In this document: positions 1,549 through 46,336 of the stretch, piece by piece | Numbering within the stretch: the first letter of the stretch is position 1 | Layout: every line of letters begins with the position of its first letter | Assembly (NCBI RefSeq): GCF_001661915.1 | Contig: NZ_LYWY01000037.1 | Coordinates: forward strand, 310,001 to 374,000 | DNA from: Croceicoccus pelagius | GTDB taxonomy: Bacteria > Pseudomonadota > Alphaproteobacteria > Sphingomonadales > Sphingomonadaceae | Reading direction: 5' to 3' | DNA length: 64,000 nt | Program-made: the position numbers and the translations under genes | Notes under the pieces: generated by a model | The model's database searches: none | The model's input: only the letters and a program-made list of their open reading frames with translations | What the model was told of the DNA's origin: nothing

Positions 1549-2924
1549 TCGTCCAGCAGGTCCTTTTCGCGAGTGACCTGCCTTTCCCGCGCGACCAGGT
1601 CCGCAACGTGGGTCTCGGGCGCGGTATCCACCTTCTCTTCGACGACTGCGGCGCGCGAAACCTTGGCGGGCTTCGCACCCTCTTCGCTTGTAGCGGGCAG
1701 TGGCATCGGGGCCGAACGCGGATCGATGCGCAGGCGGTAGATCGGTTCGGGAAGGCCGAAGCCTGCACCTTCCAGCGCGCCCTTCGCAGCCTGTATCGCC
1801 AGCGAGCGTGCCTTGTAGAAATCGGTGTCGGTCTGGTCGATCCAGCCGAGGAAGCGCACAACGACGTTCGAATCGCCCACTTCCATCACCCGCGCATTCG
1901 GGGCAGGTTCGTCGATCACGAAATCGAGCGCCGCGATTGCCGCCGTGCCCGTCGCCATCGCCTCGACCGGATCGTCGTCGGCATCGACGCCAAGGTCGAA
2001 TTCGAAGCGGCGCTGCGGGTTGGTGGTGTAGTTCAGGATCACCGCCTTGAAGACGGTGGAGTTCGGGATGCGCAAGTGATTGCCGTCCAGCGTCATCAGC
2101 ACGGTGGCGCGGCTGGTCAGGCGGATGACGCGCCCTTCGTTGCCTTCGATCACCACGTGATCGTTCGCCCGGAACGGCTGACGCAGCGAGAGCATGATCG
2201 ACGAGATGTAGTTGTCGATCGTGTCGCGCACGGCAAAGCCGATGGCGATGCCTATCACGCCGCCGATACCCAGCAACGCCCCCAGCAACGCGGTGGCGCC
2301 AAGGATCTTCAGTGCGATGTAGAGGCCTAGCAACACCCCGAAGAACCTGATCGCGCTGCCCAGCAGTTCGGCGATGAAGGGATTGGGTGTGAGGCGCAGC
2401 CAGAGCGATTCCCGGTCGGCCAGCCAGCGTAGCGCGACCATGACGAACGCTGCGAGCAGCACCGCCACCCCGAACAGCGGCAGCATCCGCCACAGGTTGC
2501 GGGCCTGATCCCCGATGGCAGAAACGGTGGGGGCAAGGTTGCGGTCGACGGCAAGGTCGCGCTCGATCTCGTTGTTTACGGTGACCACGCCCGCGACGCG
2601 GCCCGCGATCGTTTCGGCCTGTTCGGCCTTGGTCGCGCTGGCGACGTTGCCCGACAGGGTGACGACGCCTTCCTGCACTTCGACTTCGACTGCATCGAGC
2701 GCGTCGATGGCCGCGAAGATGGCTTTGATGCGCTCGGCAATGCGGGCGTCGGCATCGTCGGCCCGCTCGGTCTCGATCGCGGCGGGTTCGGGGGCGCTCG
2801 TCCCTTCCGTCGCAGGTTCGCCGGTCAGTTCGGCAATAGCCCCATGGGCCGCGACCGGGGAGACAAGCGCGAAGAGAAGCGCGCAGAGCAGGTGTTGCAG
2901 GGTCTTCAGTTCAGGCACCGGCAA
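1530..2924 (-). CDS. MscS-family mechanosensitive channel with BON domain
   Basis: Inner-membrane small-conductance mechanosensitive channel of 464 residues. Residues 1-28 look like a signal peptide ending VAAHG. Residues about 57-125 form a BON domain (GVVTLSGNVAS is the core), a periplasmic lipid-associated module. Transmembrane segments follow at about 143-168 and 187-240; the last contains the Gly/Ala-rich pore helix (GALLGIGGVIGIAIGFAVRD) and is followed by the MscS beta domain (NDHVVIEGNEGRVIRL, LRIPNSTVFKAVILNYT). The C-terminal 60 residues are low complexity and charged. The start overlaps the end of the upstream pmbA gene by 14 bases, so the two are probably co-transcribed. The BON-MscS combination is known in proteobacteria. 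Confidence 0.9.
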   Translation of the reverse strand: MPVPELKTLQHLLCALLFALVSPVAAHGAIAELTGEPATEGTSAPEPAAIETERADDADARIAERIKAIFAAIDALDAVEVEVQEGVVTLSGNVASATKAEQAETIAGRVAGVVTVNNEIERDLAVDRNLAPTVSAIGDQARNLWRMLPLFGVAVLLAAFVMVALRWLADRESLWLRLTPNPFIAELLGSAIRFFGVLLGLYIALKILGATALLGALLGIGGVIGIAIGFAVRDTIDNYISSIMLSLRQPFRANDHVVIEGNEGRVIRLTSRATVLMTLDGNHLRIPNSTVFKAVILNYTTNPQRRFEFDLGVDADDDPVEAMATGTAAIAALDFVIDEPAPNARVMEVGDSNVVVRFLGWIDQTDTDFYKARSLAIQAAKGALEGAGFGLPEPIYRLRIDPRSAPMPLPATSEEGAKPAKVSRAAVVEEKVDTAPETHVADLVARERQVTREKDLLDESRPVE

Positions 2925-4254
2925 CCATCATCCCGTCGACGCGTAGCGTCGGCACGTTGACTGCGTAGAAGTTTTCCAGATCATTCGCCGCGCGAAGCGA
3001 GCGGAACATTTCCAGCAGGTTGCCAGCGATCGTAATGCCCGAAACTGGACCCATGATCTCGCCCCCGCGAATGCGGAAGCCCGATGCGCCGCGGCTGTAA
3101 TCGCCGGTAACGCCGTTGACGCCCTGTCCGATCAATTCGGTTACCAGAACGCCTTCCTCGATGTCGGCGATCAGTTCCTCGACGCTCTGCTGCCCTGGGG
3201 ACAGCACGACATTCGAACACGAGGCGCTAGGCGATCCGCCGCCGTGACGCACGGCATGTCCGGTCGGCCGACGTCCCAGCTTGTTTGCCGAGGCCGTGTC
3301 GAGCAGCCAGCCCGACAGCACGCCGTTTGCGATGATGGTCGAGGGGCGGGCGGGCAGGCCTTCGCCGTCGAAGGGGTGCGAGCTGAGCCCGCGCGGGCGA
3401 AGCGGATCGTCGACGATCGTCACGGCGCTGTCGAAGACTTGCTTGCCTTCGTGCTCCATCAGGAAACTTGCGCCGCGCGCGATCGATGGACCGGAAATCG
3501 CCCCGACGAGGTGGCCGACTAGGCTACGCCCGACCATCGGGTCGAACACCACCGGCATGGCGCCGCTGCGCATCGTTTCGGGGCCGAGGCGGGCGACCGC
3601 GCGGTCTGCGGCCTTGCGGCCGATCTCGGCAGCGTCGGGAAGTTCGCCGCGATGACGGGCGACGCGCCATTCCGACCCCCGCTCCATCCCGCTGCCCTGT
3701 CCGGCAACGACCGCTGCGGAGATCGAGTGGCGCGACTGGCAGTAGCTGCCGGCAAAGCCGTGGCTGGTGGCGATCGCGATGGTGTTGCCGCCGCTTCCGG
3801 CAGAGGCACCTTCACTATTGGTGATGCCCTGGACCTCACGGGCGCATTCCTCGGCCTCTCGCGCGGATTCGCGCAGGATGTCGGCATCGGGATTGGGTGA
3901 GACGAGGTCGAGATCGGGGATCGGCCCCTTCATCAGCATGTCTTCAGGTGCGAGGCCCGAAAATTCGTCCTGCGGCGCGGCGCGGGCCATGGCGATGGCG
4001 CGGCTGGCCAGTTCGTCCAGGCTTGCCGCGTCCAGTGCGCTCGATCCGATCGTTGCGCTGCGCTTGCCGACGAAGACACGCAGGCCGAAATGCTCGGTCT
4101 CCGACCGGTCGACGGCTTCGAGTTCGCCGAGGCGGACTTCCACGCTTTCCGAATGATTTCCGACATATACCGCATCGGCAGCGTCTGCGCCCAGTTCCTT
4201 TGCGCGGTTGATCAGGTCGGCGCAGCGGCCGAGCGCGCCCTCTTCGTTCAGCAT
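2911..4254 (-). CDS. pmbA: TldD/PmbA family protein, PmbA
   Basis: 447-residue member of the TldD/PmbA (modulator of DNA gyrase) family. PmbA partners TldD in a cytoplasmic metalloprotease complex that trims modified peptides; by family knowledge PmbA lacks the HExxxH of TldD, and none is visible here. Family-typical blocks include VEVRLGELEAVDRSE near the N terminus, HPFDGEGLPARPSTII in the middle and a C-terminal GDYSRGASGFRIRGGEI. A tldD partner is not in the window. It is the first gene of a two-gene unit with the MscS channel. The start at 4254 gives a normal family N terminus. Confidence 0.92.
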   Translation of the reverse strand: MLNEEGALGRCADLINRAKELGADAADAVYVGNHSESVEVRLGELEAVDRSETEHFGLRVFVGKRSATIGSSALDAASLDELASRAIAMARAAPQDEFSGLAPEDMLMKGPIPDLDLVSPNPDADILRESAREAEECAREVQGITNSEGASAGSGGNTIAIATSHGFAGSYCQSRHSISAAVVAGQGSGMERGSEWRVARHRGELPDAAEIGRKAADRAVARLGPETMRSGAMPVVFDPMVGRSLVGHLVGAISGPSIARGASFLMEHEGKQVFDSAVTIVDDPLRPRGLSSHPFDGEGLPARPSTIIANGVLSGWLLDTASANKLGRRPTGHAVRHGGGSPSASCSNVVLSPGQQSVEELIADIEEGVLVTELIGQGVNGVTGDYSRGASGFRIRGGEIMGPVSGITIAGNLLEMFRSLRAANDLENFYAVNVPTLRVDGMMVAGA

Positions 4255-4388
4255 GGGCTCTCGATCGTATGGAGGGGGCTCGTATTCAAGGCTTCAGTCG
4301 CTCGCTTGTCCTGCAGCATATCGGCAAGGGATAGGCGCAGGATCGCAGCGCGGCAAGCCGCGCGACCGGTCTGCCTCTTTTGTGCGCC

Positions 4389-4766
4389 TCAGAACGCAGC
4401 AATCAGGCGTGCGATACCGGCAAGGACAAAAGGCGTGCCGATGGCAAAAGCCCATATGATGATGCGGTCACGCTTGAACCGCGAAGCCTGTGCCGGGTCG
4501 AACGCTTCGGCATCGGTCAGCTCGCTCCAGTGCTTTTCCAGCATGCGGGCGGCGGGGATGATCATGGCGACAAGAACGATGAGCGCGAGATAGGGCAGCG
4601 TCGTGCTGGTCATCTCTTTCAGCTGCTTCATCGTCACGAAGATCTGCAGTGCGGTATAGACCAGCAACGCATAGGCGAGATGGTCGCTGATGCGGCGGCG
4701 CCAGTCCTTCACGACGACCTGTTCATGATCCCGGATCGCGGAATCCTTCCGGCTATTCACCATCAT
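4389..4766 (-). CDS. Small conserved-looking membrane protein, function unknown
   Basis: 125-residue protein with three predicted hydrophobic segments (about 29-47, 55-75 and 99-122) separated by short charged loops (SELTDAEAFDPAQASRFKRD). I do not recognise a family with confidence; composition and codon use are like those of the neighbouring core genes. It is divergent from lptB, with about 200 bases between the starts, and is preceded by nothing obviously co-transcribed. It could be a small sphingomonad-specific inner-membrane protein. Confidence 0.7.
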   Translation of the reverse strand: MMVNSRKDSAIRDHEQVVVKDWRRRISDHLAYALLVYTALQIFVTMKQLKEMTSTTLPYLALIVLVAMIIPAARMLEKHWSELTDAEAFDPAQASRFKRDRIIIWAFAIGTPFVLAGIARLIAAF

Positions 4767-4968
4767 TGCCCCAGTCCCTTCGTCTGCCCGTAGACCATGG
4801 GAGTATTCATCTGCGGCAGATGCGCGTCAAGCGTGGGTATTGCTGGCCACCGATGCCCGGTGGCGGGCCGCCGCATATCCGAAACGGCCCGCCATGCAGG
4901 AATCTTGCCAATTGGCGGTCGAGGGGCTTCAAAGGCGCGGCGCAGATGCTATGTGATGGTGCAAGAGA

Positions 4969-5814
4969 ATGACGCGGGTCTTCCTTTCGCTTCGCACGAC
5001 GGGATGCCTGCCGACGAGGAGCAGTACCATCGACAGCCATACCCTCGATCCGTCCGTGGACCCGGCCGCAACGGCCTCGCCCCCGGTGCCTCAGGGCGGG
5101 CTGGAAGTCGTCTCTATCGCCAAAAGCTACGACAAGCGCGCGGTCCTGACCGATATTTCGCTCTCGGTCGCCAAGGGCGAAGTGCTCGGTCTGCTCGGCC
5201 CGAACGGTGCGGGCAAGACGACGTGTTTCTATTCTATCATGGGGCTCGTCCGCCCCGATTCGGGCCGCATCCTGATGGATGGCGAGGACGTGACGAAGCT
5301 GCCGATGTATCGCCGTGCGATCCTTGGCCTCGGTTATCTGCCGCAGGAAACCTCGATCTTCCGCGGCATGACGGTCGAACAGAACATCAACAGCGTCTTG
5401 GAAATGGTGGAGCCTGACGCCGACGTTCGCGCATCCGAACTGGAACGCCTGCTCGACGAATTCGGCCTGACGCGCCTGCGCGAAAGCCCTGCGATGGCGC
5501 TGTCGGGCGGTGAACGTCGGCGCTGCGAGATTGCCCGCGCGCTGGCGGCAAAACCTTCGATCATGCTGCTCGACGAACCGTTCGCCGGTATCGACCCGCT
5601 TTCGATCGGCGACATCCGCGATCTCGTGATCGAGCTGAAGACGCGCGGTATCGGTGTGCTGATCACCGATCACAACGTGCGCGAGACGCTGGAGATCGTG
5701 GACCGGGCCTGCATCATTTATGGCGGACAGGTCCTGTTTGCCGGTTCTCCGCAAGATCTCGTCGCGAACGAAGACGTGCGCCGCCTCTACCTGGGCGAAG
5801 CCTTCACGCTTTGA
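4969..5814 (+). CDS. lptB: LPS export ABC transporter ATP-binding protein LptB
   Basis: ATPase of the LptB2FGC complex, which extracts lipopolysaccharide from the inner membrane. Walker A GLLGPNGAGKTT, signature LSGGERRRCEIARAL and Walker B IMLLDEPFAGIDPL are all present, as is GYLPQETSIFRGMTVEQNI, a stretch highly typical of LptB rather than other ABC ATPases. The start is uncertain: ATG 4969 gives a 45-residue leader before the ABC core with only a weak ribosome-binding site, while GTG 5056 would be closer to family length. rpoN follows 21 bases downstream, the conserved lptB-rpoN order. lptA and lptC, often just upstream, are absent; a divergent membrane-protein gene takes their place. Confidence 0.93.
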   Translation: MTRVFLSLRTTGCLPTRSSTIDSHTLDPSVDPAATASPPVPQGGLEVVSIAKSYDKRAVLTDISLSVAKGEVLGLLGPNGAGKTTCFYSIMGLVRPDSGRILMDGEDVTKLPMYRRAILGLGYLPQETSIFRGMTVEQNINSVLEMVEPDADVRASELERLLDEFGLTRLRESPAMALSGGERRRCEIARALAAKPSIMLLDEPFAGIDPLSIGDIRDLVIELKTRGIGVLITDHNVRETLEIVDRACIIYGGQVLFAGSPQDLVANEDVRRLYLGEAFTL

Positions 5815-5835
5815 TCGCGCGGTAGCTGCTGACCG

Positions 5836-7290
5836 ATGGCATTGGGCCCCCGCCTCGACCTACGGCAGACGCAATCGCTGGTGATGACGCCGCAGCTGCA
5901 GCAAGCGATCCGCTTGCTTGCGCTGTCCAACCTCGAGCTTGAATCGTTCATTGCCGACGCGGTGGCCGACAATCCTCTGGTCGACCTGGCGAACGGCGAA
6001 GGTGAACGCGCCGCCCCTGCCGAAAGCGGCGAGTTGGCTGAAGCCGTGCCCACTGAGGGGCAGGGCGACGGGGAGTCCGCGCTCGACATAGCGGGCGAGA
6101 TGCTGGACCGCGATTTCGACACCGGCTCCTCGCGCAGCAGCGGTTCGGGCGGAGCGGGCGAGGACATGCCCGACATCGGCGAGCGTGCTTCGGGCGATGA
6201 AACGCTGGCCGAATATCTCCACGCACAACTGGGCGCGGCGGGCGGGACCGAGGCGGAGCAGTTCATCGCGCGCCAAATCATCGACCAGCTGGACGAGGCG
6301 GGGTACCTGACGCTCGACCTTGGAGAGATCGCCGAATTGCTCGGCGTATCGATGCAGCTTGCGGAGGCGGGGCTGGCTCTGGTCCAGTCGCTCGACCCGA
6401 CCGGCGTGGGTGCGCGCTCGCTGTCCGAATGCCTTGCACTGCAGGCGAAGGAGGCGGACCGCTACGACCCGTGCATGCAGGCGCTGATCGCGAACCTCGA
6501 CCTGCTGGCGCGGGGCAATTTCGCGCAGTTGAAGCGCATGTGCCGTGTCGACGACGAGGACCTGACCGACATGATCGCGGAACTGCGCAGTTACGATCCC
6601 AAGCCCGGCTGCCGGATCGGCGGCGATGCCGCCCCGCCGGTCGTGCCAGATGTCTTCGTGAAGCCCGACCGCACAGGCGGCTGGGCAATCGCGCTCAACC
6701 GCGACACGCTTCCCCGACTGGTGATCGACCGGCAGTACTATGCCACGCTGAAGGCCGGATGCGGCAAGGACAAGTCGTCGGGCGGCTGGCTGGGCGAGAA
6801 GCTTGCCGATGCCAACTGGCTGGTTAAAGCGCTGGACCAGCGGCAGAAAACGATCCTGAAAGTGGCGAAGGAAATCGTGCGGCGGCAGGAAGGCTTCTTC
6901 CGGCGCGGCGTCTCCGCGCTCGTCCCGCTGACGCTGCGCGATGTCGCCGAGGCGGTCGAGATGCACGAATCGACGATCAGTCGGGTGACTTCGAACAAGT
7001 TCCTCAACTGCGGGCTCGGCACGTTCGAGCTGAAATACTTCTTCTCCTCCGGCGTCGCGTCGGATGGCGACGAAGGCGCGGCATCGGCAGAGGCGGTGAA
7101 GGCTGCGATCAAGGCGCTGATTGACGACGAAAAGCCCGACGCGATCCTGTCGGACGATACGCTGGTCGATCTGCTCAAGGCCAAGGGATATACGCTGGCC
7201 CGACGGACCGTGGCTAAATACCGCGAGGCGGTCGGGCTTGGCAGTTCGGTCCAGCGCCGCCGCCAGAAAAAGCTTCAGGGCGTGCGTTAG
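5836..7290 (+). CDS. rpoN: RNA polymerase sigma-54 factor RpoN
   Basis: Alternative sigma factor for -24/-12 promoters that need AAA+ activators. All parts of the family layout are visible in 484 residues: the Gln/Leu-rich activator-interacting region I (residues 8-40, SLVMTPQLQQAIRLLALSNL), an acidic variable region II (about 50-115), the core-binding domain, the HTH (about 372-395, LRDVAEAVEMHESTISRVTS) and the RpoN box ARRTVAKYRE (about 454-463). It follows lptB closely and overlaps the end of the convergent phosphodiesterase gene by 4 bases. No sigma-54 activator gene is in the window. Confidence 0.97.
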   Translation: MALGPRLDLRQTQSLVMTPQLQQAIRLLALSNLELESFIADAVADNPLVDLANGEGERAAPAESGELAEAVPTEGQGDGESALDIAGEMLDRDFDTGSSRSSGSGGAGEDMPDIGERASGDETLAEYLHAQLGAAGGTEAEQFIARQIIDQLDEAGYLTLDLGEIAELLGVSMQLAEAGLALVQSLDPTGVGARSLSECLALQAKEADRYDPCMQALIANLDLLARGNFAQLKRMCRVDDEDLTDMIAELRSYDPKPGCRIGGDAAPPVVPDVFVKPDRTGGWAIALNRDTLPRLVIDRQYYATLKAGCGKDKSSGGWLGEKLADANWLVKALDQRQKTILKVAKEIVRRQEGFFRRGVSALVPLTLRDVAEAVEMHESTISRVTSNKFLNCGLGTFELKYFFSSGVASDGDEGAASAEAVKAAIKALIDDEKPDAILSDDTLVDLLKAKGYTLARRTVAKYREAVGLGSSVQRRRQKKLQGVR

Positions 7291-8138
7291 GCGCCGGGGC
7301 GTTCCTCGAACATGTGCGCGATCATCGACTGAAGGTTCTGGTCGTAACGGGCCAGCACGGTACGGTCTTCGGCCGTGTCCCAGTGCGTCACCAGTTCGCG
7401 CCCGTTCCAGAAATGCAGCGCATAGGCCGGCGGGTCGGCGACGATCAGCGGGCGCTGATCCGGCACTTCGGTATCGATCTCGGCGAATTCCAGTGCGACT
7501 TGCGGCGCGGTGGACGGCGTCGTCACCACTTCCAGCCCCTGCCATGTGCTGGCCGAGGCGCGGTGGATATGGCCGCAGACCATAGTGTGCACGTTGTCGC
7601 GGTCTTTCAGGCACGCGCCAAGCCGCTTCACCCACGGCTCTTCCGGCACCGTGTTCATCCACGGGATGCCGCATTCGAATGGCGGGTGATGCTGGACGAT
7701 GATCGTCGGAGTATCCGCGTCCTCGTCCAGCCGCTCTGTCAGCCATCGCGCGCGCGTGTCGCAAAAACCGCCGCCGTGGCGGCCGACTTCCAGCGTGTCG
7801 AGCACCAGCAGCCGCATCGGGTCGGTACGCAACTCATATTGCAGGAAGCCGTCGGCCCATTCGTGTTCGGGGAACACTTCGGCAAAGTTCGCGCGGTCGT
7901 CGTGATTGCCCAGTGCCATGTGCCAGGGGGCGGGGAAATCCTCCAGCGCCTCGCGCAGGCGGCGATAAGAATCGATGTCGCCCCGATCGATCAGGTCGCC
8001 CGTCAAAAGAAGCATCGCGGGCAGGGGATTGAGCGCCGCCAGATGTGCCAGCGTGCGGTCCAGCCGCTGGCGGTTGAACTCGCCGGGCGAGTCCGGCTCG
8101 AAGCCGAGATGGATGTCGGTGATCTGGGCAATCAGCAT
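7287..8138 (-). CDS. Metallophosphoesterase, class III cyclic-nucleotide phosphodiesterase type (CpdA-like)
   Basis: 283-residue calcineurin-like phosphoesterase. The full set of dimetal motifs is seen: DIH (residues 8-10), GDLID, GNHDDR, VQHHPP and CGHIHR. This order and spacing match the CpdA / class III cAMP phosphodiesterase group, so hydrolysis of a 3',5'-cyclic nucleotide is the likely reaction; other phosphodiesters are possible. It lies 4 bases after the stop of the FHA-decaheme cytochrome gene and is the last gene of a four-gene minus-strand operon. The first gene of that operon encodes two cyclic-nucleotide-binding domains, so the context supports a role in lowering the signal sensed there. 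Confidence 0.85.
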   Translation of the reverse strand: MLIAQITDIHLGFEPDSPGEFNRQRLDRTLAHLAALNPLPAMLLLTGDLIDRGDIDSYRRLREALEDFPAPWHMALGNHDDRANFAEVFPEHEWADGFLQYELRTDPMRLLVLDTLEVGRHGGGFCDTRARWLTERLDEDADTPTIIVQHHPPFECGIPWMNTVPEEPWVKRLGACLKDRDNVHTMVCGHIHRASASTWQGLEVVTTPSTAPQVALEFAEIDTEVPDQRPLIVADPPAYALHFWNGRELVTHWDTAEDRTVLARYDQNLQSMIAHMFEERPGA

Positions 8139-8142: not shown

Positions 8143-9999
8143 TCACCTCATCGACACCTGCTTGCGACGGTTGGCATCGGCTTTGGCGATTGTCTTCGGT
8201 GCCTTCGACATCCAGGGCGGGCCGTCGTCGGCGTGATAGTCGTGGCACATCGCGCAATCGCTCTCGACCGGGTGCTTCACTTCGGTCAGCGAAGCGCCGG
8301 TGCCGCCGACATGGCAGGTCCGGCAACCGCCTTCGCCGCCAAGTCCGGGGATGAGCACGCGGCTGGCATCGTTGCTGCGCGTCGCGTCGACGTGGCATTC
8401 GGTGCACGCGTACTTCGTGTGTGCGTCGTGGGTGAACCAGCCCATCGCGAGATAGCGGTTGTTCTGGACGGCGGGGACGATGTCGAAGCCGTTGGTGACC
8501 GCCGGACCGTCGCGCGTGATGACGTGGCAGTCATAGCAGGCCCCGCCTTTCGAGAAGACACGCGTGACCGCCCCGTCGGCGCGGGTCGGGTAGAACTGCA
8601 CCGCGCGGGCGAAATCGCGGGCGGTGCGCTGCGATGCGCCGTCGCCGGGCGAGCGGCGCGCCATGCCCGACAGGCTGGCGGGACGCGGCGGATTGCCGGA
8701 ACGATAGAAGGCTCGCAGGTCCGCGGCGACCAGTTCGGGCTCACCATGGCGCAGCGTGCGGGTTGTGCCGTCGATCATTTCCAGCCCCAGCGCGTGGCAG
8801 GACTGGCAGCTGTCTTCCATCTTTACCGGCTCGAACCGGACCTTCGTGGAATCGAGCGTATGGCAATCGGCGCACTGCATCGCGTCGCGGCCGTCGTATT
8901 CGCCCGGACGGCGGCGGACCATCTGGGCGACGCCGCCGGTCTTGCTCATGTGTTCGGCATGCGTGAACTTGAGGCCATTGTCCTCACGCGCGGTCTTGGT
9001 CAGCGTCATGCGCTGGAACACCGGCTTGTCACCCGGCTGGACGACGAGCGCGGGGTGGAACTCGGGATGGCCGGTTCCAAAGTCGCTCGCATCTGGCAGT
9101 TTCGTGTCCGGCAATCTCTTGCTCATCCCGTCATGGCAATCGGTACAGAACTTCTGGGGTGTGTCCTCCATAGCGCCAGCGCCGGTATGCTCGATGTGAC
9201 ATTCGACACACCTGCCTGCGGGACGGTTGAAACCTTCGGCCACGGCGCGCTGGAACTGGCCGAACGCGCCGGGTTCGCCGCGCGCCGCGACGAGGCGGGC
9301 GGTGGCGTCGTTGGCGGCGAGCCCCGAGATATGCGCGTGGGCGTCATCCTCGTGGCAGGTCGTGCAGGCATTGTCGCGCACCGCGACGAAGGCATCGACG
9401 TGACAGGCCTGGCAATCGTCCTTGAGTCCGGCGTGCGCGAGCGTCAGGTCGCCCGAGGACCAGATCTCGTCCCCGTGATAGCCCGATCCGCGCTCCTTCT
9501 CGCCCTTGTGCGTCATGTAGGCGCCGATAGGCCACGCAAGGCAGGCAATGAGCACGAGGATCGCAAAGCCCCATGCCGACATGCGCTTGCCGGGCATCAG
9601 GCCCTTCAGTGTATAGACGCTGCCGAGGTCCTTTTCTTCCGAAACGTCGGAGATCGCCTCGACCCGGCGGACGGTGAAGACCGGCACTCCGCCATCGCCA
9701 CGTTCGACGTTTATGCGGTGGCCGCCGAAGGTCAGCTCCGCACCGCGCGAAAGGTCTATGGCGCGGCGGTTCACGCTGCGTCCGTTCATCCCGAACGGCT
9801 GGTCGGCGATGGATTCGACGAAAAGTTCGCCGTCCTTCATCACCGCGCGCGCATGGCGCGGGTCGACGGCAAGGTCGGGCAAGTGAATGTCGCACGACGC
9901 ATCGCGCCCGATGGTGATTGTGTCGCCATCTACGGTCGTGGGGCGGACGATTTCCTCCCCACTGGCCTTGAGCGCGATCTGGCGGATAAGAAAGGTCAT
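8143..9999 (-). CDS. FHA-domain / decaheme c-type cytochrome fusion
   Basis: 618-residue membrane-anchored protein. Residues about 22-110 form an FHA domain (TIGRDASCDIHLPDLAV, then FGMNGRSVN), predicted cytoplasmic. Residues about 142-162 are one transmembrane segment, and the rest is periplasmic with ten CxxCH heme c sites: CQACH (196-200), CTTCH, CVECH, CTDCH, CADCH, CQSCH, CYDCH, CTECH, CRTCH and CAMCH. Many other His residues could be distal ligands. The FHA core has Asp-Pro-Arg-His where the usual phosphothreonine-contacting Ser-x-x-His would be, so phosphopeptide binding may be changed or lost. It starts 10 bases after the cytochrome b gene. No characterised protein with this architecture is known to me. 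Confidence 0.88.
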   Translation of the reverse strand: MTFLIRQIALKASGEEIVRPTTVDGDTITIGRDASCDIHLPDLAVDPRHARAVMKDGELFVESIADQPFGMNGRSVNRRAIDLSRGAELTFGGHRINVERGDGGVPVFTVRRVEAISDVSEEKDLGSVYTLKGLMPGKRMSAWGFAILVLIACLAWPIGAYMTHKGEKERGSGYHGDEIWSSGDLTLAHAGLKDDCQACHVDAFVAVRDNACTTCHEDDAHAHISGLAANDATARLVAARGEPGAFGQFQRAVAEGFNRPAGRCVECHIEHTGAGAMEDTPQKFCTDCHDGMSKRLPDTKLPDASDFGTGHPEFHPALVVQPGDKPVFQRMTLTKTAREDNGLKFTHAEHMSKTGGVAQMVRRRPGEYDGRDAMQCADCHTLDSTKVRFEPVKMEDSCQSCHALGLEMIDGTTRTLRHGEPELVAADLRAFYRSGNPPRPASLSGMARRSPGDGASQRTARDFARAVQFYPTRADGAVTRVFSKGGACYDCHVITRDGPAVTNGFDIVPAVQNNRYLAMGWFTHDAHTKYACTECHVDATRSNDASRVLIPGLGGEGGCRTCHVGGTGASLTEVKHPVESDCAMCHDYHADDGPPWMSKAPKTIAKADANRRKQVSMR

Positions 10000-10009: not shown

Positions 10010-10975
10010 TCACCAGTAGAAGAACACGGAAACGATATGGGCGGACAGCGCGGCCAGCAGCGCGAAAGTCACCGGCACATGGACATAGAGCCAAAGCTGC
10101 AAGAGCGACTTCAGCCGCAAGTGACGGCGCAGGCGCGCGAGCATCGCTTCCTTGCGGGTCAGCAGGGCATCGACGCGGTCCAGCGGATCATCGGCCACTC
10201 GCGGGCGGAAGGCGCGCGCCTCGCGCAAGGTCGCCGCGGCGCGGCGGGTGGCGCAGTTCGGATAGCGCGCCGTCACGCGGTTCCAGATCGAACCGTCGAA
10301 GGGGTCCTGCTCTAGGCTCTTTTCGACGACCGCGGCGTCTTCTGCCGTCAGCGGCTGGGCGGCATCGTGGATCTGGCGGTCGAGGCTGCGCAGCTGTTCG
10401 ATCATCTGTTTTTCGGTGACCGCGCCGTCTTCGTCATAGCGGTTTTCGGACAGCGCTTGCGGCAAGGTCCAGTAGAACCAGATGCCGAACATGCCCGATA
10501 CGATGACTATCATCATCAGCGCCCAGGCAAGCGTGTGAACGTTCCAGCCAAGATCGAAGCCGGTGTGCAGCGTGGCGACGACGATCAGCGAGAGGCCGAG
10601 ATAGACGTGCGCGCTGGTCCACGCCTTCAGGCTCCACGTCCCCGGCGTCATTGCACGCTTACGCACGCCCAGCAGCGTCAGCCACACGATCAGCCCCGCG
10701 CTGATGGTGCCAAGCGTATAGCCGAGCCACGTCCCGCCGAAATGCTGTGCGGGCAGGGGCGCGAAAATGTACGCAAGCAGCGAGACGAGGCAGAGCACCC
10801 CTGCAACCTTCCACCAGCGACCGTTCGCATAAGACAGGAAGCTGTCGTGGCTCGTCACTTTGTTGCGGCGGGTGCACCGGCGCAGGCCAAGCTTGCGCTT
10901 GCGCGTGTCGGTGCTCGTCGTGTCCTCGGCAGTTGCCGCGGTTTCGGTCGGTTCAAGTCCCGGAAGGCTCGCCAT
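10010..10975 (-). CDS. Membrane diheme cytochrome b-like protein
   Basis: 321-residue integral membrane protein starting at ATG 10975 (MASLPGLEPT), overlapping the upstream flavoprotein stop by one base (TGATG). It has about five transmembrane helices. One carries HVYLGLSLIVVATLH and the last carries HVPVTFALLAALSAH: in both, two His are 13 residues apart. H-x13-H in two helices is the classical arrangement for two stacked b hemes spanning the membrane. A soluble, charged loop of about 110 residues lies before the last helix. No longer family name is certain. It sits between a cytosolic flavo-iron-sulfur protein and a periplasmic decaheme protein, so it probably carries electrons between them. 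Confidence 0.82.
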   Translation of the reverse strand: MASLPGLEPTETAATAEDTTSTDTRKRKLGLRRCTRRNKVTSHDSFLSYANGRWWKVAGVLCLVSLLAYIFAPLPAQHFGGTWLGYTLGTISAGLIVWLTLLGVRKRAMTPGTWSLKAWTSAHVYLGLSLIVVATLHTGFDLGWNVHTLAWALMMIVIVSGMFGIWFYWTLPQALSENRYDEDGAVTEKQMIEQLRSLDRQIHDAAQPLTAEDAAVVEKSLEQDPFDGSIWNRVTARYPNCATRRAAATLREARAFRPRVADDPLDRVDALLTRKEAMLARLRRHLRLKSLLQLWLYVHVPVTFALLAALSAHIVSVFFYW

Positions 10976-13566
10976 CACGCGCCCTCCGTTTCGGACTTGA
11001 GGCGTGCAACAGTCAGGAACTCGTCCGGCGCGACGCGGATCGCGGCTCCGGTCGGGCAGGCGCGGACGCAGGCCGGGCCGCCGTCGATGCCGGCGCACAT
11101 GTCGCACTTGATCGCCTTCTTGCGGTCCAGCGCCTCGTCATGCGCAGGATCGCCGTTGTAGGGCATGTTCTTCTTCGACCACTTGTAGGGCGGCTCGCCC
11201 GGCCCCGGCCCCTTGCCGAAGAACAGCCACGACAGCAGCGAGGGTTTCTTCGGCGGCACCTTGTCCATGCGGATCACGCCATAAGGGCAATTGCGCTGGC
11301 AATTGCCGCAACCGATGCAGGTATCGTCGATGAAGACTTCGCCGTCCGGCCCGCGGTGGATCGCGTTGGGCGGACAGTCGGCCATGCAGTGCGGATGCTC
11401 GCAGTGGCGGCACGATGTCGGCACGTGGAGATGCGCGAAGCTCTTGCCCGCCTCCCGGTCCAGCCGCGACAGCCCTTCGTGCGCGTCGGCGCAGGCCTTT
11501 TCGCAGTTGTCGCAGCCAACACACAGCTTCTCGTCGATCAGCAGGACGTCGGTCGCTTCGCCAAGGCCTTGCGACACGAGGAACTTTGCCTGTTCGGAAT
11601 AGAGATCGACGACGCCCGAAAAGCTGTCCTTCTTCGATTCGATCAATGCATTGGTGCGGCGGCGCACGTCCATCTCGCGCCGGGCCTTGTCCATCAACGC
11701 GGGCTTTGCGGCGAGGACGCGCTCGAACGCCTCACCGTCGATCTCGATGACCTCGCTCTTGATCGCGGCTCGGACCGTGGCGGTGCGCTGGCCGCCGTCG
11801 ATCAGCGCCATTTCGCCGACATAACTACCGGCAGGAAGGTAGGAGAGAAAGACCGGTTTGCCGCCGACTTCCTTTTCCACAACCATCGATCCGACGCGGA
11901 TGACGAAGATGTTTTTTCCGTCCTCGCCCTCGTTGATGATCGCCTGCCCCGCGAGCACGGTGCGGATCTTCGCGGTTTCGACCACTTCGGCAATGTCGGC
12001 GGGCGTCAGGCCCGATCCGAACATCTGGAGCAGCTGGCGCTCGGTACTGATACGCTCGATCTCGCGCTTGGCGGGCGGGACCTGGCTCATCAGTTTCAAC
12101 GCGGCGTTGCGGCTGATCTCGACGCAGATCGTGGGCTCTGCCGCCACGATCGTCGCGCCGCGACGGCGTCCGGAAATCAGGCCGACTTCGCCGAAGATCG
12201 TTCCGGCAGGGATCGGCACGACTTTCGATGCATCGTTCGGGTCGATCTGCACGTGGACCTTGCCCTCGGCAATCGCGAAGAGCGAGGACCCCGGCGCGTT
12301 CTTCTCGAACACGACTTCGCCCGGCGCATAGCTTCGCACGTCGGAATCGAGCATGAACTCGCGCATCTGCAGCGGGCTCATGTCCTTGAGGATCGAGATG
12401 CTGGTGCGCAGGACTTCGAGCCATTCGTCGACCGAGCGGCCCTTGGGCAGACCTGCGAACTTTTCGGCCAGAAGCGGCTCGTCCGCCGGTTTCAGCTCGG
12501 TATTGCCGTTGATGAACTCGACGACGTCATAGCCCTGGTTCATGCAGTGCTTGATGAGCGGATAGCCGGCCAGCGCGCCGATCACGAAGATGCCGGGGGC
12601 GGTCGTTTCGAACACCGGCGACAGTTGGGGGAAGGCCAGCCGGTCGTCGCTGGTAAAGGCGATGCCGCAGTTTTCGACGAATGCGCGGGGCGGGGCTGAG
12701 CCGATACGCGCGATCACGCGGTCGCAGCGGATCTTCTCCTCGCCGTCGCGGGTCGACAGCGTCGCCCAGCCGGGTTCGAGTTCCTTGACCTCGGTCTCGT
12801 ACCGGATGGTCAGCTTGCCGTCGGCATCGTCCTCGACCAGCGCCTTGGCGTTGGGTTCTTTCGCGTTGGCAAAGCTTTCACGAACGTTCGTGGACTTCGG
12901 TTTGCGGTTGAGGATCGAGACGACGTTGCCCTGCGCCGAATCCTCGGCAAGTCCGCGCGCATTCTCGATACCGGCATCGCCCACGCCGACGACGATAACG
13001 TGTTCGTCCAGAACCTCGGTCGGATCGTCCAGCTGGTAGGTCACGTGCGGCAGATCGCCGCCCGGACAGCGCATCAGGTTGGGGTTGCCCTGCGTGCCGA
13101 TGGCAAGGATCACCGTATCGGCGATCAGCTTCTCGCCACTGGTCAGTTCAAGCTCGTAAGGGCCTTCGTGGCGCTGCAGTTCCTTGACGTCTTTCGTGCC
13201 GTCGCGGTTGCGCTTCACGATCTGCTGCACACTGTCGGGGATGGCGGGACCGGTTCCGCGGATCGCCTTCACCTCGGCGTTGTACTTGACGTTGATGCCC
13301 AGTTCGGACGTGCGCGCGTTCCACTTGGCGAGGATGTCCTCGCGCTTGCCCGCGTCGAATTCCTGGTCGGATCGCAGGATAAGCTGCGACGGCGTGGCCA
13401 TCACGTGCTTGCCCTTCTGGTACTTGTAGATCGTGTCCGACAGGTGGTCGGTCTTTTCCAGCAGGACGTGGCTCAGCCCAAGCGCGGCGGCGCGGCTGGC
13501 CGCGCTCATCCCCGCCGGGCCAGACCCGATTATCGCTACCCGGAACGTGTCGGTCACCGTTCCCAT
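10975..13566 (-). CDS. FAD/NAD(P) oxidoreductase with two cyclic-nucleotide-binding domains and four [4Fe-4S] ferredoxin sites
   Basis: 863-residue cytoplasmic multidomain protein. Residues 10-340 are a pyridine-nucleotide oxidoreductase with an FAD motif (GSGPAGMSAA, 14-23) and a second dinucleotide motif (VGVGDAGIENA); there is no CxxC redox pair. Residues about 395-505 and 515-640 are two cNMP-binding beta-barrels (FGEVGLISGRRRGATI; YVGEMALIDGGQRTATV). From 680 on there are 16 cysteines in four clusters: CVGCDNCEKAC, CRHCEHPHCMADC, CIGCGNCQRNC and CDMCAGIDGGPACVRAC, as in NrfC/DmsB-type subunits. It is the first gene of the operon. The likely role is moving electrons from NAD(P)H to a membrane cytochrome under cyclic-nucleotide control; the direction is not provable from sequence. 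Confidence 0.9.
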   Translation of the reverse strand: MGTVTDTFRVAIIGSGPAGMSAASRAAALGLSHVLLEKTDHLSDTIYKYQKGKHVMATPSQLILRSDQEFDAGKREDILAKWNARTSELGINVKYNAEVKAIRGTGPAIPDSVQQIVKRNRDGTKDVKELQRHEGPYELELTSGEKLIADTVILAIGTQGNPNLMRCPGGDLPHVTYQLDDPTEVLDEHVIVVGVGDAGIENARGLAEDSAQGNVVSILNRKPKSTNVRESFANAKEPNAKALVEDDADGKLTIRYETEVKELEPGWATLSTRDGEEKIRCDRVIARIGSAPPRAFVENCGIAFTSDDRLAFPQLSPVFETTAPGIFVIGALAGYPLIKHCMNQGYDVVEFINGNTELKPADEPLLAEKFAGLPKGRSVDEWLEVLRTSISILKDMSPLQMREFMLDSDVRSYAPGEVVFEKNAPGSSLFAIAEGKVHVQIDPNDASKVVPIPAGTIFGEVGLISGRRRGATIVAAEPTICVEISRNAALKLMSQVPPAKREIERISTERQLLQMFGSGLTPADIAEVVETAKIRTVLAGQAIINEGEDGKNIFVIRVGSMVVEKEVGGKPVFLSYLPAGSYVGEMALIDGGQRTATVRAAIKSEVIEIDGEAFERVLAAKPALMDKARREMDVRRRTNALIESKKDSFSGVVDLYSEQAKFLVSQGLGEATDVLLIDEKLCVGCDNCEKACADAHEGLSRLDREAGKSFAHLHVPTSCRHCEHPHCMADCPPNAIHRGPDGEVFIDDTCIGCGNCQRNCPYGVIRMDKVPPKKPSLLSWLFFGKGPGPGEPPYKWSKKNMPYNGDPAHDEALDRKKAIKCDMCAGIDGGPACVRACPTGAAIRVAPDEFLTVARLKSETEGA

Positions 13567-13751: not shown

Positions 13752-14717
13752 GTGGTGACGGGAATGGATGGCGTGGCATCGAGCAAGGGTAGAACGATCG
13801 CGCGCTGGGTGCTGGGCGGCGCGGCGCTGATCGCGGCGGGCGCTGTGGGCTATTCCATCGTGCGCAACGACACCATGCCGGTGCAGCAGGTGGCGGACGA
13901 AGCGGGGGAACAGGCATCCGTCGCCCAGATGATCGCAAAGCTGGAAGCCCGGCTGGCCCAAAGCCCCGACGATGCCGAAGGCTGGCGGATGCTCGGCTGG
14001 TCCTATTTCCAGACCGGCCGCTATGCCGAGGCGGCAACCGCCTTCAAGCGCGCGACCACGCTCGACCCCGACAATGCCGAAAACCATTCGATGTTGGGCG
14101 AAGCGCTGGTTCTGGCCAGCCGCGATGGCAAAGGCCTGCCCGCCGATGCCCGCTCCGCGTTCGATCGCGCGCTTGCGCTGGACCCGGCCGATCCGCGCGC
14201 CCGTTATTTCCGCGCCGTCGCGATCGATCTGGAGGGCAAGCACGAGGAAGCGATCGAAGCCTGGTTCGACCTGCTGGAGGACACCCCCGCCGACGCGCCC
14301 TATGCCGCCGATGTGCGGCAGGTCATCGCCGAAGTCGCGAAGGCCAACAACATCGACGTTGCCGAGCGCCTTGAAAATGCCAGCTTCGCCCCGCCCAGCG
14401 GCGGTCTGAAGACCGACGGCGCGGCAACCGCCACGGCGGGCATTCCGGGGCCGAGCGCATCGGACATCGAAGCGGCGAAGTCGATGTCGGCCAGCCAGCA
14501 GCAGGAAATGATCCGCGGAATGGTCGACCGGCTGGCGGCCAAGCTTGAGGAAGACCCGCTCAACCCCGATGGCTGGATCATGCTGATGCGCAGTCGCGTA
14601 CAGATTGGCGACATAGCCGGTGCACGAGAGGCGCGGGACGAATCGCTTCGTCTTTTCCGCAACGACGGGACGACGACGCGCCGCCTGCGCGAGGCCGCGG
14701 GCGCGCTAGGCCTTTAG
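13752..14717 (+). CDS. TPR protein, CcmI/CycH-like cytochrome c biogenesis factor
   Basis: 321-residue protein with one N-terminal transmembrane helix (about residues 19-38) and tandem TPR units (AEGWRMLGWSYFQTGRYAEAATAFKRA and a second near 130-165; a further unit near the C terminus, NPDGWIMLMRSRVQIGDIAGAREAR). This layout is that of the periplasmic part of CcmI/CycH, which holds apocytochrome c for heme ligation. GTG 13752, GTG 13755 and ATG 13764 are all possible starts. It diverges from the decaheme cytochrome operon, which would need heme c maturation; the rest of the ccm genes are not in the window. A general TPR scaffold is the alternative. Confidence 0.78.
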   Translation: MVTGMDGVASSKGRTIARWVLGGAALIAAGAVGYSIVRNDTMPVQQVADEAGEQASVAQMIAKLEARLAQSPDDAEGWRMLGWSYFQTGRYAEAATAFKRATTLDPDNAENHSMLGEALVLASRDGKGLPADARSAFDRALALDPADPRARYFRAVAIDLEGKHEEAIEAWFDLLEDTPADAPYAADVRQVIAEVAKANNIDVAERLENASFAPPSGGLKTDGAATATAGIPGPSASDIEAAKSMSASQQQEMIRGMVDRLAAKLEEDPLNPDGWIMLMRSRVQIGDIAGAREARDESLRLFRNDGTTTRRLREAAGALGL

Positions 14718-43452: not shown

Positions 43453-44676
43453 GTGCCGCTGACAGATACTCGCCTCCGCGCACTCAAGCCCAAGGATAAG
43501 CCGTACAAGGTAACCGATGAGCGCGGCCTATATGTTGAGGTCACGCCGACCGGCGGCAAACTTTGGCGATTCCGATACCGGATCGGCGGAGCGCAAAAGA
43601 AGCTCTGCATCGGCAGCTATCCCGACATCAGCCTCAAGCAAGCGCGAGACGCGGCCTACGAGGCACGACGAGCTGTTGCTTCTGGGGGCGACCCGGCCTT
43701 TGAGAAGCGGAAGCGGAAAATCCGCGCAGAGTTCCTTTCTGCACAGACGTTCGAGGCAGTCGCACGTGAGTATATTGAACAGATGATGGTCCAGAATGGC
43801 CGCGCCGATGGCACGATCGTCAAGGCCAATTATTTCCTCGACAAGCTTGCGCCTGCCATCGGGAACCGACCCATCGACGAGATCGAGCCGTTCGAAGTCC
43901 TGGCTCCCCTCAAACGACTGGAAGCCACTGGTAAGCACGAGACTGCGAAGAAATGCCGCTCGTTCGCAGGCCGCGTGTTTCGCTACGGTGTTGCTACCAC
44001 CCGCTGCAAATCCGATCCGACCAGTATGCTGAAGGGCGCTCTCGTAACGCCGAGAGTCACGCATTATGCAGCAATCCTCGAGCCCACCGAGCTAGGCGGG
44101 CTGCTGCGCGCAATCGACGACTTCACTGGCTACATGGTGACGAAGTTGGCTTTGCAGATAGCGCCGCACGTGTTCGTACGCCCCGGCGAACTCCGGCACG
44201 CCGAATGGCATGAGATCGACCTCGTCGATGGGGTCTGGAAGATCCCTGCCGGTAAAATGAAAGCGCGCCGAGCGCATGCCGTCCCGCTTTCCAAGCAGGT
44301 TAGAGGCTATCTCACTGATCTGGCCGAGATGCTCGGCCGCGAAGGATATGTTTTCCCATCTGCGCGCAGCTCCAAGCGTCCCATGAGTGAAAACACGCTC
44401 AATGCCGCATTCCGTCGCATGGGATACTCGAAGGAAGAAGTCACCGCGCATGGACTCCGGGCGACAGCATCGACATTCCTCAACGAGTCGGGCCTTTGGA
44501 ATCCCGATGCGATCGAGCGTGCCCTGGCACATGGCGACAGCAATGTTGTGCGTGGCATCTACCATCGCGGCAAACATTGGGAAGAGCGCGTGCGCATGGC
44601 TCAATGGTGGAGCGACTACCTCGATGAGCTCCGGACAGGAGGAAAGGTCATCATGGGAAAGTTTGCGAATGGTTGA
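43453..44676 (+). CDS. Tyrosine-type site-specific integrase
   Basis: 407-residue phage P4-like integrase starting at GTG 43453. Residues 1-90 are an arm-type DNA-binding domain (DUF4102; LYVEVTPTGGKLWRFRYRI), about 100-190 a core-binding domain, and 205-395 the catalytic domain with Arg in VRPGELRHAEW, HGLR in TAHGLRATAST and the nucleophile Tyr in VVRGIYHRGKHWEER. It inserts and excises the element at tRNA-Leu(CAG). Downstream the region turns to convergent minus-strand genes. Confidence 0.95.
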   Translation: MPLTDTRLRALKPKDKPYKVTDERGLYVEVTPTGGKLWRFRYRIGGAQKKLCIGSYPDISLKQARDAAYEARRAVASGGDPAFEKRKRKIRAEFLSAQTFEAVAREYIEQMMVQNGRADGTIVKANYFLDKLAPAIGNRPIDEIEPFEVLAPLKRLEATGKHETAKKCRSFAGRVFRYGVATTRCKSDPTSMLKGALVTPRVTHYAAILEPTELGGLLRAIDDFTGYMVTKLALQIAPHVFVRPGELRHAEWHEIDLVDGVWKIPAGKMKARRAHAVPLSKQVRGYLTDLAEMLGREGYVFPSARSSKRPMSENTLNAAFRRMGYSKEEVTAHGLRATASTFLNESGLWNPDAIERALAHGDSNVVRGIYHRGKHWEERVRMAQWWSDYLDELRTGGKVIMGKFANG

Positions 44677-44696
44677 TCGGAAGAACGAATTTCTTC

Positions 44697-44801
44697 TCAG
44701 CCAGTGCAGGATTGAAGGCTCAGGACCAGCCCTGTCAGGAACACTGACGCGAGCAGGGCGAACTCAATTCTGATGCCCCATACCTTAAGCCACTTCCGCA
44801 T
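44697..44801 (-). CDS. 34-residue predicted membrane peptide
   Basis: A short open frame from ATG 44801 to TGA 44697-44699. It begins MRKWLKVWGIRIEFALLASV and continues as one hydrophobic helix, ending with a Cys three residues from the C terminus. A TGAGG ribosome-binding sequence sits at the stop codon of the upstream DUF6961 gene, 11 bases before the ATG, so coupling is likely. It would be the last gene of a minus-strand unit (lytic transglycosylase, nuclease, DUF6961). No homologue is known to me; it could be a chance frame. Confidence 0.4.
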   Translation of the reverse strand: MRKWLKVWGIRIEFALLASVFLTGLVLSLQSCTG

Positions 44802-44812
44802 CGTGCCGAGCC

Positions 44813-45007
44813 TCAGTTCGTAGAGCTTTGGCAGCTAAGCTGATCGAAGCGCTCAGCAACAGTCTTCCACGTTGCTATGCCTGCCTCGTCCCCTTCGTTG
44901 GATAGCCGCTGGATTTGCTGCGCGATATACGCGGTTCCCTTTTTGCCATGGTTCTTTTCGACCCAGAGTGCGACGGCCCACAATTCCTGATCGCGGTTCA
45001 GCACCAT
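44813..45007 (-). CDS. DUF6961-like small protein
   Basis: 64-residue helical protein: RDQELWAVALWVEKNHG, then YIAQQIQRLSNEGDEAGIATW. I recognise this as the DUF6961 type that recurs on sphingomonad mobile elements and chromosomes; no function is known. It overlaps the end of the nuclease gene by 10 bases, so the two are coupled. Confidence 0.75.
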   Translation of the reverse strand: MVLNRDQELWAVALWVEKNHGKKGTAYIAQQIQRLSNEGDEAGIATWKTVAERFDQLSCQSSTN

Positions 45008-45549
45008 GGTTCACGCCTCCCGGTCCAGGTTCGCGCCAGGCCTTCGCTGACCAGCTGATCGCCAAGCGAGCGGCCGCCGCGCGTTACAACCCGCAATTTG
45101 CGACCGTACTGATCCTCATCTCTGCTCCCGATAGTCCTCAGTTCAAAGGGCCCGTCATTGAGCAATTCGACAAGGCGGTGCGTCGCGCGCATGCCGAGCT
45201 GGTATTCATAGTCGCAACGAGGCTCGCTGATCTCGGGAGTGTCGATGTCGGCAATCCGGATCTTCACGCCATCAAGCCACAAAGTATCTCCATCCACGAC
45301 GCATGTGCGTCGGATGGATCCGCAGATGTTGAATTGTGGGGAGCTTGCTTGCTGGAATAAAGCCTGAGGCTGCTGATCGTCGTTAGCAAGGCTGGCATCA
45401 TGGACTGGCCAGTTGAGTGCCAGCATCCCTCCAGCAAATACGATCGCGAATGCTCCCAAACCCAACGCGATCTCCTTTCTCAGCTTCCGGCGCTTCTGTG
45501 TCTTCAACGCCTTGCGAAAGTCGAACGGCTCACCGGGGGTCTCATTCAC
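44998..45549 (-). CDS. Thermonuclease (SNase) family protein, membrane anchored
   Basis: 183-residue protein with a basic N-terminal tail, one transmembrane helix (about 27-46) and an SNase domain: CVVDGDTLWLDGVKIRIADI and DTPEISEP contain the DGDT and R-x-x-D-x-x-E residues, and DQYGRKLRVV carries the third catalytic Arg. The domain would be periplasmic. It lies between a lytic transglycosylase and a DUF6961 gene in the element. SNase genes of this type often accompany conjugation genes; whether it processes DNA during transfer is unknown. Confidence 0.87.
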   Translation of the reverse strand: MNETPGEPFDFRKALKTQKRRKLRKEIALGLGAFAIVFAGGMLALNWPVHDASLANDDQQPQALFQQASSPQFNICGSIRRTCVVDGDTLWLDGVKIRIADIDTPEISEPRCDYEYQLGMRATHRLVELLNDGPFELRTIGSRDEDQYGRKLRVVTRGGRSLGDQLVSEGLARTWTGRREPWC

Positions 45550-45613
45550 TGGCGTTGTCCGTCTTCATTCCGGCACATGATTTCAGACAATAGCCGGAAA
45601 TCAGGTAGTTTCG

Positions 45614-46198
45614 TCAATTGTACGTACCAATTGCTTGCCAACGTCCCAACACAGACCGGACATATTGCGGCGTTTCACCATTGTTGGGAATGCCGCGTGA
45701 TCGGGAGACGGCACCTGGGCCAGCATTGTAAGCAGCCAAGGCCAGGTGGACCGCGTCGAACCGGTCCAACATATCGCGAAGGTACCTGGCGCCACCGTCG
45801 ATCGATGCAAGAGGGTCATGACGGTTCCGGACGCCCAGTTCTCTCGCCGTGGCCGGCATAAGCTGAGCCAGCCCGGCAGCACCGGCCGGACTCACAGCCA
45901 TCGGATTGAAGCGGGACTCAGCCCAGATAAGAGCACGAAGCAGGTTGGTCGGAAGCCCGTAACGGCGTTCAGCCTCGGCTATCGCCGCCATATACAAGCC
46001 TTCCCGGTAGGATACGTTTGCTGGCTCGGCCTGGTAGATTGCAGGAAGATATTCCCTTGCCGGCTGCTGGTCCGCCTTCGGCGGAACGATCGCGTGCTCG
46101 AACAAGGTGAAATCCTGGGCGCGAACTTGCTGTGAGGAGGTCGCGATCATCCCCAGACAGGCGACCGCTAGCGCGGTCAGACAATTGAGGCAGGTCAT
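45614..46198 (-). CDS. Lytic transglycosylase (SLT domain), VirB1-like
   Basis: 194-residue exported muramidase-type enzyme starting at ATG 46198 (MTCLNCLTALAVACLG), with a signal peptide ending QVRAQ. The SLT fold shows the catalytic Glu in ALIWAESRFNPMAVS, then GAAGLAQLMPATARELG and LALAAYNAGPGAV. It probably opens peptidoglycan for a type IV secretion channel, as VirB1 does; the channel genes are not in the window. It is the first gene of a short minus-strand unit. Confidence 0.9.
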   Translation of the reverse strand: MTCLNCLTALAVACLGMIATSSQQVRAQDFTLFEHAIVPPKADQQPAREYLPAIYQAEPANVSYREGLYMAAIAEAERRYGLPTNLLRALIWAESRFNPMAVSPAGAAGLAQLMPATARELGVRNRHDPLASIDGGARYLRDMLDRFDAVHLALAAYNAGPGAVSRSRGIPNNGETPQYVRSVLGRWQAIGTYN

Positions 46199-46336
46199 CT
46201 CGACTTGTGCTCCATTGATTCGAATCGAAAGAGAACATAAAAAGAACATGTGCCTGTAGGAAAGCCGCGAATGCCTGCCTTTGGGAGAGGAGAGGAACGC
46301 TGATGAGGGGGCCATTTTGCATGCTGAGGAGCTCGC

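Follow-up and report, generated by a model that had tools for sequence, protein, structure and literature searches.

The window analyzed here, a 64,000-nucleotide stretch of Croceicoccus pelagius DNA (GCF_001661915.1, contig NZ_LYWY01000037.1, positions 310,001-374,000, forward strand), encodes a protein with an FHA fold, one transmembrane helix, and ten heme sites. Its gene belongs to a conserved set that looks like a means of moving electrons between cytoplasm and cell surface. We lean modestly toward a view in which this FHA-decaheme protein serves as the hub, in the inner membrane, of an electron conduit across the envelope; a flavoprotein and a cytochrome b would work with it, its FHA domain would be the dock, cyclic nucleotide (cNMP) would gate the flow, and an outer module would continue the path.

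FHA fold, membrane helix, and heme sites of the 618-aa protein

The protein and its parts were located as follows.

8143-9999, minus strand: FHA domain, one transmembrane helix, and decaheme cytochrome c, 618 aa (ORF, Pfam, AlphaFold, Foldseek, hydropathy)
9661-9999, minus strand: FHA domain, residues 1-113, with Gly31-Arg32 kept, Asp46 replacing Ser, and the ligand Asn loop lost (Pfam, alignment, AlphaFold, Foldseek); predicted to lie on the cytoplasmic side
9520-9576, minus strand: single transmembrane helix, residues 142-160 (hydropathy; helix 140-163 in the AlphaFold model)
8233-9435, minus strand: heme region, residues 189-589, with ten CXXCH and nine other invariant His (motif count, alignment)

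The sequence-only reading had described an FHA domain joined through one membrane helix to ten heme c sites, and had proposed a domain search and modeling of the FHA ligand pocket among its checks. The observation was confirmed. PF00498 (FHA) matched residues 28-92 at 28.7 bits (Pfam cut-off 20.7), which places this region in the FHA family, and Cytochrome_C7 matched the protein at E=8.7e-17 (61.2 bits; Pfam cut-off 24.8). The AlphaFold model contained eleven strands within residues 2-112 and was confident for residues 21-110 (pLDDT ~88-95), with a value of only 54 for the whole protein; the run, made without hemes, gave no usable model of the heme domain. A Foldseek search against the PDB returned 16 matches at E<=0.001, which were FHA-domain entries with OdhI as the best. 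Residues 142-160 were the only segment above the hydropathy threshold. The ten CXXCH motifs compared with a mean of 0.03 and a maximum of 2 in 5000 shuffles of the same sequence.

To describe conservation, we counted residues in 90 sequences, comprising the window, 79 of the 80 loci kept from a scan of genome contigs of 235 relatives, and 10 fetched loci; the remaining locus, L076, was left out because its N-terminus lies beyond the contig end. The FHA and decaheme parts formed one protein in 90/90, and none of the homologues examined lacked the FHA domain; an absent FHA region was one of the outcomes by which the sequence-only reading would have been refuted. The His residues of all ten CXXCH motifs were aligned and invariant, and nine more His (189, 271, 311, 347, 350, 418, 524, 527, and 589) were invariant as well, with His221 present in 74 and His223 in 77 of the sequences; one heme site of L109 reads CX4CH. 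Several CXXCH motifs with distal His make the protein a multiheme cytochrome c, and because about ten distal His accompany the ten hemes, the pattern suggests bis-His electron-transfer hemes. Searches of the heme part against solved structures gave weak matches only (best E=0.017; best profile match E=0.02). The heme part may be exported to the periplasm and loaded with heme, in keeping with the predicted helix and with contig C25, where genes for cytochrome c assembly are located. The Cytochrome_C7 model matched three places in the window's genome, namely the FHA-decaheme gene and the giant and tetraheme cytochromes described below.

The pocket of the FHA domain has diverged. In the HMMER alignment to Rad53 FHA1, the Gly-Arg pair aligned and the Ser of S-x-x-H corresponded to Asp46 (D-P-R-H), both as read earlier. 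The ligand loop T-N-G paired with Q67-P68-F69, and Asn72-Gly73 fell on a second, later turn (LNG). Gly31, Arg32, and Asp42 were invariant across the 90 homologues and His49 was present in 87, position 46 was Ser in three, and at position 72 there were 47 sequences with Asn and 40 with Asp. The earlier statement that Asn-Gly is kept as ligand chemistry thus found no support, since this Asn belongs to the LNG turn. The ligand residues of phosphothreonine-binding FHA domains are Arg, Ser, and Asn, of which the homologues retain Arg32; as far as the alignment tells, the fold and its face are retained and the usual phosphothreonine chemistry is gone. A domain that read phosphothreonine on a partner, with a kinase switching the electron chain on and off, would agree with the FHA fold, the invariant Arg32, and the conserved neighboring face, yet it has a slim chance given the near-absence of Ser46 and the replacement of the ligand Asn loop by Q-P-F; nor did any protein kinase gene catch the eye among the conserved neighbors. 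The structural or docking role that the sequence-only reading had also considered fits, because the Ser and Asn contacts are lost, and constitutive docking appears likelier than phosphopeptide reading for so degenerate a domain.

Operon partners and their distribution

The neighboring genes in the window were assigned as follows.

7287-8138, minus strand: metallophosphoesterase (phosphodiesterase), SpdA/cAMP phosphodiesterase-like (model matches below cut-offs)
10010-10975, minus strand: membrane cytochrome b-like protein with invariant His123/His137 and His299/His313 (Pfam, alignment, hydropathy)
10975-13566, minus strand: flavoprotein, a pyridine nucleotide oxidoreductase with two cNMP-binding domains, ferredoxin domains, and 16 Cys for four [4Fe-4S] clusters (Pfam, alignment)
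13752-14717, plus strand: CcmH/CycH-type TPR protein of the cytochrome c biogenesis type, a divergent neighbor (Pfam)

The flavoprotein and cytochrome b genes lie upstream of the FHA-decaheme gene and the phosphodiesterase gene downstream. The flavoprotein stop and the cytochrome b start overlap by one base, and the other gaps in the operon are ~10 and ~4 bases. The 16 Cys of the flavoprotein fall into four groups and were invariant in 22 sequences. PF00027 matched two stretches of it at 117.4 bits (cut-off 27.5), and in each of its two cNMP domains the G-E and R-x-A positions were invariant (22/22), so the protein would belong among cyclic-nucleotide-binding regulators; we take the conserved Glu and Arg to be the residues of the phosphate cassette. 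The two His pairs of cytochrome b were invariant in 34 sequences and presumably represent the diheme pattern of NarI/FdnI-type subunits. A profile search with this protein gave chance-level ATP synthase b matches only (E 0.13 or worse). In two loci, L109 and L110, the flavoprotein and cytochrome b form a single ORF of 1118 and 1123 aa, respectively, with no internal stop. The phosphodiesterase matched the SpdA and cAMP phosphodiesterase models, each below its cut-off.

Homologues of the CcmH/CycH-type gene were found in 58 of the 80 loci, a set that includes several short contigs. In the window, this CycH-like gene is the only such gene upstream of the flavoprotein, and Cytochrom_C_asm matches occur on contig C25 of the same genome; in L108 (G298), apparent ccm genes (CcmI/H/G/F, by eye) occupy 1683-5874, directly 5' of the flavoprotein gene. 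A glutamate dehydrogenase-like gene, recognized by eye, was seen near the FHA operon or the outer module in six genomes and could perhaps serve as a source of NAD(P)H:

L107, 5837-7171: glutamate dehydrogenase-like gene
L108, 11283-12638: glutamate dehydrogenase-like gene
L116, 15637-16989: glutamate dehydrogenase-like gene
L122, 5099-5434: glutamate dehydrogenase-like gene
L124, 1-342: glutamate dehydrogenase-like gene
L141, 709-2061: glutamate dehydrogenase-like gene

Of the 80 loci of relatives, 78 are titled within Sphingomonadales and the other two carry broader names (A2 comprised 57 of these 80 plus the window). Genes in fetched loci were called with a purpose-made codon scorer rather than a standard predictor. 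The FHA-cytochrome had cytochrome b beside it in 79 loci, the flavoprotein in 78, and the phosphodiesterase in all 80, and the two exceptions to the gene order, L025 and L076, both start at contig ends. Among 398 Pseudomonadota genomes, the FHA-cytochrome occurred in 15 from seven families, eight of them belonging to one family, and the flavoprotein was found in exactly the same 15, in line with the partnership that the sequence-only reading had suggested. A match in G031 (E=5e-4, residues 24-92) covers the FHA domain only and was not counted. In seven distant loci, the flavoprotein and cytochrome b again adjoin the FHA-cytochrome, which shares 25-34% identity with that of the window. The phosphodiesterase was not found in six of these and lies several genes away in L108, which counts against our preferred reading, as does a second flavoprotein gene in G040 (L164, 8497-10962) that has neither cytochrome b nor the FHA-cytochrome adjoining it. 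Hypergeometric P values for co-occurrence with the FHA-cytochrome, which ignore relatedness, were 1.7e-27 for the flavoprotein, 1.6e-20 for the 631-aa family, and 1.6e-18 for the giant cytochrome (see the next section). A search of 72,556 plasmid records gave 12 FHA-cytochrome homologues, all from Sphingobium, at 46-48% identity; the plasmids that carry them are ~0.9-1.3 Mb in size.

Further features of the window were noted by eye. The only other gene with a CXXCH motif among its 57 gene calls (55765-57696, minus strand) encodes 643 aa with several membrane segments; its one CXXCH lies close to the N-terminus, and the protein looks like an FTR1-type iron permease fused to a monoheme cytochrome. 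An apparent integrated mobile element spans 43453-53646 on the plus strand:

43453-44676, plus strand: integrase-like gene
47294-51568, plus strand: helicase/methylase-like gene, 1424 aa
51595-53646, plus strand: ParB-like gene

Putative outer-membrane module

The family of a 631-aa, putatively outer-membrane protein was found in 12 of the 398 genomes, all among the 15 with the FHA-cytochrome, and in none of the other 383. A giant cytochrome with LVIVD repeats was found in 11, likewise without exception among the 15; in G193, the remaining one of the 12, the contig stops directly behind the 631-aa homologue. In a set of 40 relatives, 7 had the giant cytochrome, and the full FHA-cytochrome was present in these 7 and no others. 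Match coordinates put the two modules no more than 10 kb from each other in 8 of the 12 genomes and apart in 4. The outer module is absent from three of the 15 genomes (G040, G073, and G192) and is therefore not obligatory.

The window's genome carries the outer module on another contig (C32), in the order tetraheme c554-like cytochrome, HbpS-like protein, 631-aa protein, and giant cytochrome, and the same four-gene order was seen in L139, L141, L165, L166, and L167. The HbpS-like protein has a lipoprotein-type signal and four stretches resembling HbpS, of the haem-degrading type. The giant protein, located near the operon in L107, L112, L114, L115, and L116, has ~1500 aa and ten hemes where complete (the L107 copy is cut by the locus end), with LVIVD repeats in both members scanned. 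It matched the ExtM model at E 1e-17 with 63.6 bits, which falls short of the equivalog cut-off of 800, and 6/6 members matched this model.

The 631-aa protein is putatively an outer-membrane barrel. Its family ends in Phe or Tyr in 8/8 sequences, with mostly hydrophobic residues at positions 3, 5, 7, and 9 from the end; 4/8 gave a weak NCBIfam porin match (best E=7e-4), and amphipathic segments were clearly above shuffles in 4/8 only. A PDB search gave no match, and a barrel model built from four sequences only had a mean pLDDT of 28. Beside the outer module of the window's genome (L139, 3942-7056) we noted, by eye, an acetolactate synthase-like and an aldehyde dehydrogenase-like gene; the same pair, 75-77% identical, lies beside the FHA operon of G298 (L108, 12823-15915).

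Proposed electron route and comparison with known systems

From the observed gene order, domains, conserved ligands, co-occurrence, and flavoprotein-cytochrome b fusion, we propose a route; its heme content, the docking and gating steps, the direction of flow, the barrel, and the acceptor are all putative. The cytoplasmic flavoprotein would oxidize NAD(P)H through FAD and pass electrons to its four [4Fe-4S] clusters, from which they would reach the membrane diheme cytochrome b and then the ten periplasmic hemes c. This order is favored because it uses every conserved cofactor site, and the natural fusion fits it. The degenerate FHA domain may act as a constitutive dock that needs no phosphorylation and keeps the decaheme together with the flavoprotein and cytochrome b. 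Gating of electron flow by cyclic nucleotide bound to the flavoprotein is suggested by its conserved cNMP sites and by the neighboring phosphodiesterase, which would reset the signal. In most carriers, electrons could travel onward through the tetraheme cytochrome, the barrel-like protein, the HbpS-like lipoprotein, and the giant decaheme LVIVD protein. Metalloids, iron, and heme are candidate acceptors because of the ExtM resemblance of the giant and the HbpS-like stretches. The complete scheme, in which a cyclic nucleotide opens an NAD(P)H-flavin-ferredoxin gate to cytochrome b, the FHA-anchored decaheme, and the LVIVD outer module for regulated extracellular electron exchange in Sphingomonadales and relatives, is offered tentatively. 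The sequence-only reading had foreseen the FHA-decaheme unity, the flavoprotein partner, and a structural or docking FHA domain; it did not include the passage through cytochrome b, the tie to cNMP and the phosphodiesterase, or the outer-membrane module elsewhere in the genome.

Other functions of the same genes were weighed against this conduit. They might form no respiratory wire but a reductase at the cell surface, used to acquire nutrients or to detoxify (ferric iron, heme, selenite, or tellurite); this reading would draw on the four HbpS-like stretches of the lipoprotein and on the likeness of the giant to ExtM of the Geobacter selenite/tellurite cluster. We consider it unlikely, since the ExtM score lies far under its cut-off, the outer module showed no gene for iron uptake, and the selenite/tellurite test, in the accessible part of that report, concerned ExtI only (PMC5877670). 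The heme chain might instead sense redox conditions in the periplasm and relay them by way of the FHA domain to cytoplasmic partners, with little electron flux, as the receptor-like one-helix topology and the cNMP domains and phosphodiesterase in the operon would allow; this transmembrane sensor has the slimmest chance of all, because the full electron-transfer chain is always alongside and the outer-membrane module mostly is too.

The conduit could also run inwards, with extracellular donors such as Fe(II) feeding the decaheme, cytochrome b, and finally NAD(P)+ under the pull of the membrane potential. We judge such a direction distinctly improbable: the carriers in this analysis are mostly Sphingomonadales, which are mainly aerobic heterotrophs, and Fe(II)-driven reduction of NAD(P)+ is uphill. 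What speaks for it is that Mto/Mtr multiheme wires can be reversible, according to the part of the source available (PMC10734462), and that a ten-heme 'Forkhead-associated protein' (cluster 403) is listed there for 27 of 87 genomes of iron-oxidizing Gallionellaceae (PMC10734462 Table 1), likened here by name and heme number alone. This cluster would fit inward flow if it belongs to the same family as the FHA-decaheme protein.

Multiheme conduits as such are already known. In the open-licence literature searched, a protein like the one studied here appeared only as that table row (PMC10734462, as far as accessible), and no description was found of an FHA domain together with a multiheme or decaheme cytochrome, of a cyclic nucleotide-binding domain with a c-type cytochrome and FHA, or of such a domain with a pyridine nucleotide-disulfide oxidoreductase and a multiheme protein. 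No description of the FHA-anchored, cNMP-linked, NAD(P)H-side module or of the LVIVD outer module was met in this literature, in which one search on extracellular electron transfer and multiheme proteins in Sphingomonadales gave a single paper. Our analysis defines about eight genes as one deletable and assayable set, and offers a context for the unexplained ten-heme cluster of iron oxidizers.

Several family assignments were tried and set aside: the DmsE/MtrA decaheme family (TIGR03508; 23.3 bits against an NCBIfam cut-off of 192.2), the YscD/PrgH cytoplasmic domain of type III secretion (PF16697; 30.1 against a Pfam cut-off of 33.2 bits), TagH of type VI secretion (28.9 against 120.25 bits), and NapC/NirT-type quinol dehydrogenases, a family absent from the Pfam list at E<=1.

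The closest FHA folds are those of OdhI/GarA, soluble regulators that bind metabolic enzymes without phosphorylation and are controlled by their own phosphorylation site; unlike the FHA-decaheme protein, they have no membrane or heme part. Type III secretion proteins of the YscD/PrgH type share a cytoplasmic FHA-like domain, one helix, and a periplasmic part, but the last is not known to contain heme. The likeness to cluster 403 lies in name, heme-motif number, and a Pseudomonadota host and was drawn without sequence comparison; its table entry gives no sequence, partners, or function (PMC10734462). The Geobacter extHIJKLMNOPQS cluster resembles the present system in its porin-like protein, to which the putative barrel would correspond, its multiheme cytochromes, including the ExtM relative, and its inner-membrane cytochrome b, whereas ExtM carries 12 hemes in 68 kDa and the giant described here ten in ~1500 aa with LVIVD repeats; the inner-membrane side of Ext consists of a Rieske protein and cytochrome b, and a flavoprotein, a cNMP domain, and FHA go unmentioned in the accessible text (PMC5877670). 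In MtrCAB and MtoAB, decaheme cytochromes and an outer-membrane partner are proposed to form the electron path through the envelope (PMC13322032, PMC10734462, from the parts available), as would the genes described here. According to the available part of one of these sources, conduits of the Shewanella type draw electrons from the quinol pool, which enter through the quinol dehydrogenase CymA (PMC13322032), whereas the partner of the FHA-decaheme protein is a cytoplasmic flavoprotein. The FHA conduit seems to take its electrons from NAD(P)H in the cytoplasm, to be linked with a cyclic-nucleotide signal, and to have its parts joined by an FHA scaffold.
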